Shown here one piece after another: positions 3,107 through 58,410 of a stretch of DNA of 59,977 bases. The position numbers were made by a program, and so were the translations under genes. The DNA lies in contig DATJQV010000003.1 of NCBI GenBank assembly GCA_035505375.1, forward strand, positions 1-59,977, given 5' to 3'. Origin of the DNA: a bacterium. GTDB lineage: Bacteria; Hydrothermota; Tepidihabitantia; Tepidihabitantales; Tepidihabitantaceae. A model generated the notes under the pieces. That model saw nothing but the letters and a program-made list of their open reading frames with translations, was not told the DNA's origin and made no database searches. Each line of letters begins with the position of its first letter. Position 1 is the stretch's first letter.

Positions 3107-3172
3107 GTGAACTGTCTGAGGCGCGGAATCCCCGATGCTCGCCTCTGTCGCGGGTGCGGCAAGCGGGTCTGA
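3107..3172 (+). CDS. Putative leaderless leader ORF of ccsB, 21 aa
   Basis: A GTG at the predicted transcription start opens a 21-codon ORF with three Cys residues (C near the start, then LCRGCGKRV at the end, like half of a zinc ribbon). Its TGA is followed three bases later by the GTG of ccsB. Coupled translation is likely. The Cys content beside a cytochrome c maturation operon is suggestive of a metal or redox role, but this is inference only. Confidence 0.45.
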   Translation: MNCLRRGIPDARLCRGCGKRV

Positions 3173-3175
3173 GAG

Positions 3176-4036
3176 GTGAACCGGTCTCCGCTCGCTGCCG
3201 CTTCGGCCCTGCTCGCCTCGGCGCTGGTCTTGTCCGCCGCAGTGGGAAGCCTCTTTGGGCTTGAGCCGGAGCAGCGGCTCGTCGGTTCGGCCTGGTTTCT
3301 TGCCGGAGCCGGCATTGTGGCGCTCGCCAGCCTCCTTGCGGCGGTCGCCGCTGTCTCGCGACGTTCCTGGTCAGGTGTACTCCAGCACATCGGACTCGTA
3401 GTCGCGCTCACCGGTGTCGCCGTCAACCAGAAAGCCGCCCACAGTGATTTTCTCTTCCTGGAACAGGGGGCCGGGGCAAGCAACTTCGCTTTGGGCCATG
3501 ACTTGCGCCGGGTGGAAGAGTTACCCGTGCCGCTTGCCCTGGACTCGCTGACATCGCTCAGCGCGAAGGCATTCCGGCCCGCCCCGGTCGCATGGGTTAC
3601 CGTCGCCGATGGGCGTTCCCGCCCGGTGACCTACAACCGTCCACTGAAGGTAGCCGGCAGGCAGGTACTCCTCTCGCTGACTGTGGCGCCGGGATTCCTC
3701 AGCGAGTACGAGATCACGTTGGACGGAGCCGAGTATTTGTTACTGCACAACCAGTCGGTCGAGCCCTCACCCGGACTCCGCCTCTGGAGCTTCGCCTTTG
3801 ACGCGGCTGCGAACAAGGTTGGCCTGATGGTCGGCAATGAACAGCAGTGGCTCGGAACGGGCGACAGCGCGCTGGTCGGTGGTAGAATGTTGAGGCTCAG
3901 GTCCGCGACCTTTGCCGCAAGTCCCGGCGCGATCTTCATCGTTAGCGACACCCGATACCGGTTCCCCATCTTCATCGGCCTGGGATTCGTGCTGCTCGGG
4001 CTGCTGCCCCCGCTGTTCAGAAGGGAAAGACCGTGA
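3176..4036 (+). CDS. ccsB: Cytochrome c biogenesis protein, ResB/CcsB-like
   Basis: ResB (Ccs1) works with CcsA in system II cytochrome c maturation, passing haem across the membrane to apocytochromes. The 286-residue product has two hydrophobic segments near the N-terminus, a periplasmic region with the conserved LALD segment after residue 110, a beta-rich domain, and a final transmembrane helix (residues about 262-280) with a basic tail. This is shorter than full ResB (400 or more residues) but fits the compact ResB-like group. GTG at 3176 is the only plausible start and lies three bases after the leader ORF stop. It overlaps ccsA by four bases. Confidence 0.85.
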   Translation: MNRSPLAAASALLASALVLSAAVGSLFGLEPEQRLVGSAWFLAGAGIVALASLLAAVAAVSRRSWSGVLQHIGLVVALTGVAVNQKAAHSDFLFLEQGAGASNFALGHDLRRVEELPVPLALDSLTSLSAKAFRPAPVAWVTVADGRSRPVTYNRPLKVAGRQVLLSLTVAPGFLSEYEITLDGAEYLLLHNQSVEPSPGLRLWSFAFDAAANKVGLMVGNEQQWLGTGDSALVGGRMLRLRSATFAASPGAIFIVSDTRYRFPIFIGLGFVLLGLLPPLFRRERP

Positions 4037-7808: not shown

Positions 7809-7964
7809 CTAAGGGCCCGCCGGGGTCGGTGTTTGTGTCGACTGTGGCGGGACCGGCGGCGTGGGCTGCTGCATCGAAGGCCGCAGGGTGACGGTGAAGT
7901 ACAGGAAAAACGCGAGGGCGAGCAGCAGCAAGACGATCAGCATCTGCCGCGTGCTATTCTTCAT
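7809..7964 (-). CDS. Small single-pass membrane protein, 51 aa
   Basis: Starts MKNSTRQMLIVLLLLALAFF, continues with a short YFTVTLRPS segment and ends in a Pro/Gln/Thr-rich tail. Same size and plan as the protein at 7563-7706: MKN start, one membrane helix, Pro-rich tail. No clear promoter; TGTACT lies seven bases before the ATG but no good -35 box was found. Function unknown. Confidence 0.65.
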   Translation of the reverse strand: MKNSTRQMLIVLLLLALAFFLYFTVTLRPSMQQPTPPVPPQSTQTPTPAGP

Positions 7965-8088
7965 GCGACGCAGTACAGGAATCCGGACGACTCGGACTCC
8001 GTGTTTGCAGAAGCCGGCACAGATACGGGCACGGGCGGAATTCTAGGAGCACTAGCCCACTGGGTCAAGTGTGCGCGAACCCCGTGTG

Positions 8089-9042
8089 TCAATCTGAAGC
8101 GGGTTGCGGGGCTGGGCTGGCCTCGGGTTCGCTCAAGGTCAGAAGCGCGCGGTTGAAGTCCAAGAGCGCCCTGCCGTTTGCCGGTCCGTTGCGATTCTTC
8201 AGCACCGTCACCTCAAGCTCCGTCACAGAATCCGTGTCCGGCACAGACTCTTCCTGAGCTTCCTCCATCACACGGTTGAACAGCCCCAGCGCGACCTGGG
8301 CGTCCTGCTCGATGTCCCCGGCGCCGTGCAGGTCGTCCAAGGCCACCCGGTCCGGGTGCGCCGGGCTCCTGACCAGTTGCGCGCCGAGTATCACCGGTAC
8401 GCTCAGGCTCTTCGCGGTATCCAGTATCCGCTCGGAGATGCGTTCGAGCTCCCGCTGCCGGCTCATGAACTCACCCTGTATCCTGACTTTCTGCATGTAG
8501 TCCACGAAGACCGCCCCGACCGGGACCTGCCCGCAGATGGCGGCAACGGTTTCCGCCCAGTCCCCCACGGCATAGGGCTCGTCCTCAAGGAGGACCCGGT
8601 CTGAGTTCAGCAGCTCGCCGAGCTCTGCCTTGCCCTTTTCCAGCGTCGGGTTGTCCGTCCTGCCCTTTCGGACGTAATCCTCAAGCGCAGCCAGGTTGTA
8701 TCCCAAACTTTCCGGGTCGACGATAGTGCCGCACAGGATGTTGAGGAGCTTCAAACCGAGCTGTCGCCGCGGCTCCTCATAGGAAAAGAATACAAAAGCC
8801 TTGTCCTTGTACATACGGCTCATGTTCACGAGCAGATTGAACATCATGGTGGTCTTGCCGTGACCGGTTCTGCCGCACACAATCGTAACCGCCGCCTGAG
8901 GAATGGTCACGAGTTTATCCAGGCTGGCAAAGCCGGTCTTGAGCCCTTCTGGAGTCTTCGCAAGCTCGGCCTGGAAGTCTCTCAGCCGGTACGAACTCAG
9001 GTTCCGGAGCTGGTTCCTCGGTTGGTCTGGCGTACTCCGCAT
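8089..9042 (-). CDS. DnaB-like RecA-fold ATPase without N-terminal domain
   Basis: A 317-residue protein equivalent to the C-terminal ATPase of replicative helicase DnaB: TGFASLDKLV, Walker A GRTGHGKTT (residues about 55-63), VFFSYEEP, Walker B-like GAVFVDYMQKV near 185, VPVILGAQLVR and GAGDIEQDAQVALGLF near 240, then NRNGPANG near 285. The primase-binding N-terminal domain is absent, so it is not the main replicative helicase. An accessory or phage-type helicase or recombination ATPase is possible. ATG 9042 has GGAGG six bases upstream and overlaps the stop of a leader ORF as TGATG. Confidence 0.85.
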   Translation of the reverse strand: MRSTPDQPRNQLRNLSSYRLRDFQAELAKTPEGLKTGFASLDKLVTIPQAAVTIVCGRTGHGKTTMMFNLLVNMSRMYKDKAFVFFSYEEPRRQLGLKLLNILCGTIVDPESLGYNLAALEDYVRKGRTDNPTLEKGKAELGELLNSDRVLLEDEPYAVGDWAETVAAICGQVPVGAVFVDYMQKVRIQGEFMSRQRELERISERILDTAKSLSVPVILGAQLVRSPAHPDRVALDDLHGAGDIEQDAQVALGLFNRVMEEAQEESVPDTDSVTELEVTVLKNRNGPANGRALLDFNRALLTLSEPEASPAPQPASD

Positions 9043-9080
9043 CACGAACCTCCATCTGAACGGTACTGCCGCTCGGTCAT
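9042..9080 (-). CDS. Putative leaderless leader ORF, 12 aa (MTERQYRSDGGS)
   Basis: ATG 9080 lies exactly where transcription should begin, six bases after TAGAAT. The ORF runs 12 codons, its GGA-GGT codons form the Shine-Dalgarno site of the next gene, and its TGA shares a base with the next ATG (TGATG). This is the clearest case of the leader arrangement in the window. Confidence 0.5.
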   Translation of the reverse strand: MTERQYRSDGGS

Positions 9081-9086
9081 CGCACG

Positions 9087-9114
9087 ATTCTAGGCGGCTC
9101 AGCAACGGTGTCAA
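9087..9114 (-). promoter_or_regulatory. Promoter of leader ORF and DnaB-like gene
   Basis: TTGACA (9114-9109), 16 bases, TAGAAT (9092-9087) on the minus strand. This is close to consensus. Confidence 0.75.
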
Positions 9115-9306: not shown

Positions 9307-9375
9307 ATGTTGTTTGACTGTATCAGTCCAGCGACGAGGACCTCGGAACTGCTCGTTCGCGGTGAAGCCGGGTAG
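9307..9375 (+). CDS. Putative leaderless leader ORF, 22 aa
   Basis: ATG eight bases after the -10 box. It begins MLFDCISPAT and its TAG is two bases before the GTG and five bases before the ATG of the VanZ-like gene. No Shine-Dalgarno site. Listed because of the recurring leader arrangement. Confidence 0.4.
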   Translation: MLFDCISPATRTSELLVRGEAG

Positions 9376-9380
9376 CGGTG

Positions 9381-9722
9381 ATGGCAAAGAGAGGAAGAGG
9401 CCGGGCCTGGGTGTTCCTCATCTGCTGGATTGCGCTGACCTGTTTTCTCATGACCTACCCCTTCCGCGGCGGCCCGAGCATCATCGGGCGCGGTTACGAC
9501 AAGGTGATTCACACGTCGCTCTTCACGGTGATGGGCCTGTCGGCGCAGGCGGCAATACCGTGGGCTTCACTGCTCATAGCCGCACCGCTCGCGGTCGGAC
9601 TCGAGCTCATCCAGAAGAAGATACCGGCACGCCACTACGATATCGTTGACATGATGGCCAACGCTACCGGCATGCTCCTCGGCATCTTCGCGTACGAACT
9701 CTCAACCCGGCTCTCAAGATGA
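9381..9722 (+). CDS. VanZ-like membrane protein
   Basis: A 113-residue membrane protein with three to four helices and the VanZ-type segments TYPFRGGPSIIG...DKVIHTSLF, AAPLAVGLELIQKKIPARHYDIVDMMAN and a final GMLLGIFAYEL helix. VanZ proteins are linked to glycopeptide (teicoplanin) resistance, but most homologues are of unknown function. Start could be GTG 9378 or ATG 9381. It is followed by hisS in the same direction after 148 bases of CGAAAC/CGAATT-type degenerate repeat. Confidence 0.8.
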   Translation: MAKRGRGRAWVFLICWIALTCFLMTYPFRGGPSIIGRGYDKVIHTSLFTVMGLSAQAAIPWASLLIAAPLAVGLELIQKKIPARHYDIVDMMANATGMLLGIFAYELSTRLSR

Positions 9723-58365: not shown

Positions 58366-58410
58366 ATGACCGAAGCATCTGCGGCGTCTGCGTGGCTGCA
58401 TGCCCGGTAG
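58366..58410 (+). CDS. Putative leaderless leader ORF, 14 aa (MTEASAASAWLHAR)
   Basis: ATG seven bases after the -10 box. A second short GTG frame starts six bases after its stop and ends TGA on the ATG of the next gene (TGATG), so a relay of two short ORFs may lead to the lipoprotein gene. Confidence 0.35.
   Translation: MTEASAASAWLHAR

Follow-up and report, generated by a model that had tools for sequence, protein, structure and literature searches.

Putative leaderless short ORFs coupled to downstream genes, including a DnaB-like gene, in an uncultured bacterial lineage

In M. tuberculosis, leaderless small ORFs terminate at the start of the next gene more often than expected, their architecture rather than their sequence being conserved, and delivery of ribosomes to the downstream gene has been proposed as their role in mycobacteria (Shell et al. 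2015, PMC4633059). Short-ORF ribosome delivery is likewise named as a proposed function in a 2025 review (PMC12548453). In E. coli, an AUG at the 5′ end of the message (5′-uAUG) alters downstream expression of some genes led by a Shine-Dalgarno (SD) sequence (Beck, Fleming and Janssen 2016, PMC4965119). The delivery idea is not new (PMC4633059, PMC4965119, PMC12548453); what is new here is the lineage. The arrangements described below share with the mycobacterial ORFs (PMC4633059; Smith et al. 2022, PMC9094748) an RTG at the transcription start (here predicted), a stop at the start of the next gene and drift of the peptide. The mycobacterial cases were shown by transcription start site mapping and ribosome profiling, whereas ours are known from sequence alone, in an uncultured lineage; leaderless coupled upstream ORFs (uORFs), documented experimentally in mycobacteria, are thereby extended to bacteria known here only as genome assemblies.

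The locus lies in a 59,977-nucleotide stretch of DNA (the window), whose minus strand reads TTGACA-N16-TAGAAT-cgtgcg-ATG ACC GAG CGG CAG TAC CGT TCA GAT GGA GGT TCG TGATG immediately upstream from a DnaB-like gene (Table 1). An earlier note on this DNA had described a promoter, an ATG at the +1 position, 12 codons of which the last ones form the SD sequence, and a TGATG junction; the sequence confirms these, +1 being the expected position. The TGA (9044-9042) and the ATG of the DnaB-like gene (9042) have their A in common, a 1-nt overlap. The short ORF is in a different frame from the gene and its length falls within the 5-50 codon limit of the class. The distance of 6 nt between TAGAAT and the ATG at 9080 is the commonest in an 836-kb sample of the genome, and a search of 2.5 kb found 4 promoter-like sites where 0.4 were expected. 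The junction does not have the strict RTGA overlap of the mycobacterial class (Shell 2015), TGATG being found at 9042; it fits the broader group of ORFs whose stop lies at a gene start. Strict RTGA junctions are found at C75:56699, C69:46893, C16:58039 and, in the window, at the end of the ORF starting at 8032.

Table 1. Sequence features of the DnaB-like locus and of other short ORFs in the window.
Feature	Position	Strand	Basis or remark
-35 box TTGACA	9109..9114	-	direct reading; 11/12 consensus together with the -10 box
-10 box TAGAAT	9087..9092	-	direct reading; 16-nt spacer from the -35 box
Putative leaderless short ORF, MTERQYRSDGGS then stop	9042..9080	-	ATG 6 nt after the -10 box, predicted +1
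Shine-Dalgarno GGAGG	9049..9053	-	within short-ORF codons 10-11; 6 nt before next ATG
TGATG stop/start junction	9040..9044	-	direct reading
DnaB C-terminal-domain ATPase, 317 aa	8089..9042	-	Pfam DnaB_C E 5.6e-32; PHROG DnaB-like helicase
Putative divergent leaderless short ORF, MLFDCISPATRTSELLVRGEAG then stop	9307..9375	+	ends 5 nt before vanZ-like gene called at 9381
Putative leaderless GTG short ORF, VPVSVPASANTESESSGFLYCVA then stop	7961..8032	-	ATGA-coupled to 51-aa membrane peptide gene 7964-7809
Putative leaderless GTG short ORF	3107..3172	+	ends 3 nt before ResB/ccs-like gene at 3176

The simplest reading of this locus, and one that we consider probable, is that the A of the ATG at 9080 would be the first transcribed nucleotide, so that the mRNA would be leaderless and a ribosome would bind its 5′-terminal AUG. 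This ribosome would translate 12 codons and terminate at the TGA of TGATG; either it or just its 30S subunit, retained by GGAGG, would then begin again at the DnaB-like gene's ATG, which overlaps the stop. The short-ORF peptide would be disposable, and what would matter is the start codon at +1 and the stop at the start of the next gene. The start site at 9080, translation of the short ORF, re-initiation and the membership of this junction in a functional class are all inferred. Such a scheme resembles termination-reinitiation in operons, where stop and start also lie a few nucleotides apart and the SD sequence is often inside the upstream ORF (PMC12548453); it differs in that the upstream ORF has just 12 codons and appears to be entered from the 5′ end of the mRNA. 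It also resembles the E. coli 5′-uAUG messages, in which an SD-led gene is preceded by a short ORF that begins at a 5′-terminal AUG (PMC4965119).

Counts against chance were taken in the 836-kb sample, made up of stretches of the 3.6-Mb genome (G000), with genes called by a custom hexamer scorer that placed some starts wrongly (C66:31570, C12:32306). In the whole genome, the pattern TTGACN-N16-18-TANNAT-N5-8-ATG occurs 117 times and its reversed form once; an excess of the same kind is seen in all 61 genomes of the class that were searched, 60 of them relatives. The test set consisted of 105 promoters with the gene start at least 20 nt downstream and out of frame with any upstream start. Whereas the E. 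coli 5′-uAUG uORFs concern a subset of messages with varied effects, an ATG or GTG stands 5-8 nt after the -10 box at 42 of these 105 leadered promoters, against 11.6±3.0 with leaders shuffled. Spacings between -10 box and ATG are most often 6 nt. Relative to positions further on, ATG is enriched 4.7-fold and GTG 3.0-fold at 5-8 nt in leadered genes, as opposed to 0.5- to 1.5-fold for the triplets CTG, ATC, AGT, GAT and GTC.

The ends of these ORFs are also placed non-randomly. Of the ORFs that begin at 5-8 nt, 19 stop no further than 15 nt from the gene start (2.1±1.5 in shuffled leaders) and 10 no further than 5 nt (0.9 in shuffled leaders). When ATG at 5-10 nt and GTG at 5-8 nt are counted, the uORF frame has its stop no more than 15 nt from the gene start in 21 of 46 cases, and the two alternative frames of the same leaders in 10 of 92 (p=9e-6); with frames running through the gene removed, the difference stands at p=3e-5. 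Together with the recurrence and conservation described below, these counts speak for the reality of predicted leaderless uORFs, translationally coupled to their genes, in this lineage; the best reading of them is that ribosomes would be delivered by termination-reinitiation.

The same comparison was made in other genomes of the class. Pooled, genomes other than G000 gave 20 of 56 coupled in the uORF frame and 14 of 101 in the other frames (p=0.002); those genomes had played no part in forming the hypothesis. The signal is present in three of the four genomes sampled: coupled ORFs number 6 in G003, 4 in G007 and 6 in G031, with 0.9, 0.8 and 1.1, respectively, in shuffled leaders, whereas G030 shows no signal (3 vs 3.1). 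These per-genome counts, flat in G030, indicate that the pattern is clear within the genus and does not hold throughout the class. The earlier note had suggested a genome-wide count against shuffled controls, which thus finds an excess in the sample and in most sampled relatives, and had held that the arrangement may be general; this is borne out for the genus, but further out the pattern is weaker or, as in G030, absent.

The DnaB-like gene is poorly suited to a study of conservation. Its sole near homologue, 56% identical, forms part of a longer primase-helicase-like frame in G004 that lacks the leader found at 9080, and searches of genome contigs and viral contigs returned just distant DnaB relatives. 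As the gene has no comparable orthologue, conservation evidence for uORFs must come from other genes. The protein lacks the N-terminal DnaB domain and scores far below the NCBIfam DnaB cut-off; the genome has another DnaB-like protein besides it, at C81. The primase-helicase-like context in G004 suggests that this protein may have originated in a mobile element.

To assess conservation, five genomes of the same genus were searched for the candidate genes, and the leaders of these genes were compared. Six gene families retain the promoter, the +1 start codon and the coupled stop in relatives while the peptide drifts. Ahead of the nifS-like gene at C12:16339, a 15-codon ORF is found in five genomes with different peptides (MTNNEHRTLPKSKAV, MRRPRTGTRNRAEVV, MLYLWKGTPATPEAV, MPHQRKGTALKAEAV and MPHQRQGTRLKANAV). 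At C42:34552, a GTG-VSEG start is kept in five genomes, and the stops lie at -12, -3, -3, +4 and 0 relative to where the gene begins. C75:192297 retains GTG-CGG-AAT with a TAATG or CAATGA junction, except that in G002 the ORF and the gene form one continuous frame; an ATGA junction is present at C69:46893 in three genomes, and C12:95965 is coupled in G000 and G003. The gene at C4:44909 is predicted to be directly leaderless in G003 and G005; in G000, G001 and G004, a different sequence follows the +1 ATG and a 28- to 31-codon ORF ends 2-5 nt ahead of the gene. In an automated comparison, 17 of the 25 relatives that have a uORF showed coupling in the uORF frame, as against 3 and 4 in the other frames; relatives are not independent, and this count missed two C75:192297 relatives for which an overlapping -10 match was chosen. 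The uORF is unconserved in relatives at recA, C75:150906 (start codon in 0 of 5), C75:48489, C75:56699, C42:50533 and C66:31552. The recA ORF was rejected as a conserved uORF, its ATG being absent in G002 and G003.

These data bear on how else the junction at 9042 might be explained. The 5′ AUG could act as a ribosome landing site or protect the mRNA, so that read-through to the stop is unneeded and the gene starts from its own SD sequence. The GGAGG is indeed well placed before the ATG of the DnaB-like gene and could alone recruit ribosomes, and in E. coli ptrB, where changing the uAUG to AUC drops expression below 8%, a start-stop mutant keeps 40% (PMC4965119). A landing site, however, leaves unexplained why the frame of the uORF has its stop at the gene start when the two others do not, and how coupling survives the frame changes at C42:34552 and C4:44909; we regard it as unlikely. 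It is quite unlikely, too, that this is simply an SD-driven leadered gene whose leader by coincidence carries an ATG at +1 together with a stop that overlaps the gene's start codon. In favour of chance, some candidates of the class, recA and C75:150906 among them, are unconserved, and in the sample shuffled leaders still yield about 0.9 cases at 5 nt or less; yet 10 such cases are observed, and the ORF at 9080 has a consensus promoter with the commonest spacing.

A regulatory leader peptide, in which the speed of short-ORF translation controls transcription or translation of the gene, has a precedent in the polycysteine attenuators, leaderless short ORFs that act so in mycobacteria (Canestrari 2020, as cited in PMC9031893). 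For the DnaB-like gene it appears very improbable. The peptide MTERQYRSDGGS contains no codon run, no terminator-like site was found on the minus strand near the ORF, and the leader fold is no more structured than shuffles (z=0.36), so that the combination typical of attenuators (a codon run plus an alternative terminator or structure) is absent at 9080. Furthermore, the peptides of conserved uORFs drift.

Masking of the SD sequence by RNA structure finds no support in the leader fold at the DnaB-like gene. A loss of SD sequences from coupled genes was at first suggested by G000 (9 of 23 vs 38 of 57, p=0.04), but the p value rose to 0.08 after fixing one miscalled start and to 0.28 across five genomes, where an SD sequence is present in 24 of 41 genes after coupled uORFs vs 140 of 206. 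With an ordinary leader fold and coupled genes that are not clearly SD-poor, neither unmasking nor SD replacement is supported. The anti-SD sequence had to be assumed, since no 16S rRNA was found in the G000 assembly (stated completeness 98%).

If entry through leaderless termination-reinitiation is correct, then in genomes of this kind many leaders would be translated, the first cistron would be overlooked in annotation, and the SD sequence of a gene would tell only part of how that gene is translated. More tentatively, leaderless mini-ORF entry might be a standard third initiation route in this lineage, beside direct leaderless and SD starts, with genes switching between directly leaderless and mini-ORF-fed states by gain or loss of DNA just after the +1 start codon, as C4:44909 would illustrate; we hold this to be possible, if somewhat doubtful. 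The switch at C4:44909 offers a testable idea for the origin of mini-ORFs. It resembles the mycobacterial interspersed repetitive units (MIRUs) coupled at -4, in which DNA sits at the gene start, the ORF is coupled and expression is preserved (PMC12548453), the likeness being one of arrangement at the gene start. The C4:44909 gene (relatives L172, L173, L175 and L177) is CAAX-protease-like; its added leader holds CTTTGTCCTT-like repeats, and in G005 such repeats sit upstream of the promoter. Across the genus, the recA leader (C75:46798 in G000; L086-L090) shows very strong conservation (TTGACTTGG...GAAATCTATACTCTG), beyond the need of a bare promoter.

Within the window, a survey of start codons 5-9 nt after a -10 box gave 14 that open short ORFs other than genes. 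Four of them end within 10 nt of a called gene, namely those at 3107 (ccsB/ResB-like), 9080, 9307 (vanZ) and 20728. The earlier note had listed eight window promoters opening such ORFs: coupling to a gene holds for ccsB, the ORF at 9080 and vanZ, while the ORFs of apbE (at 1117) and the lipoprotein (at 58366) end 107 and 70 nt before the gene, and those assigned to HEPN, a Lys-rich peptide and mod were unmatched by name. The 51-aa gene at which the 8032 ORF ends was absent from the gene-caller output. This gene (7964-7809) and its neighbour at 7706-7563, both on the minus strand, encode similar small membrane peptides (MKNSTRQMLIVLLLLALAFFLYF... and MKNFARALLLVVIVAVAALVLYV...); the former is ATGA-coupled to a putative leaderless uORF, and the latter appears directly leaderless.
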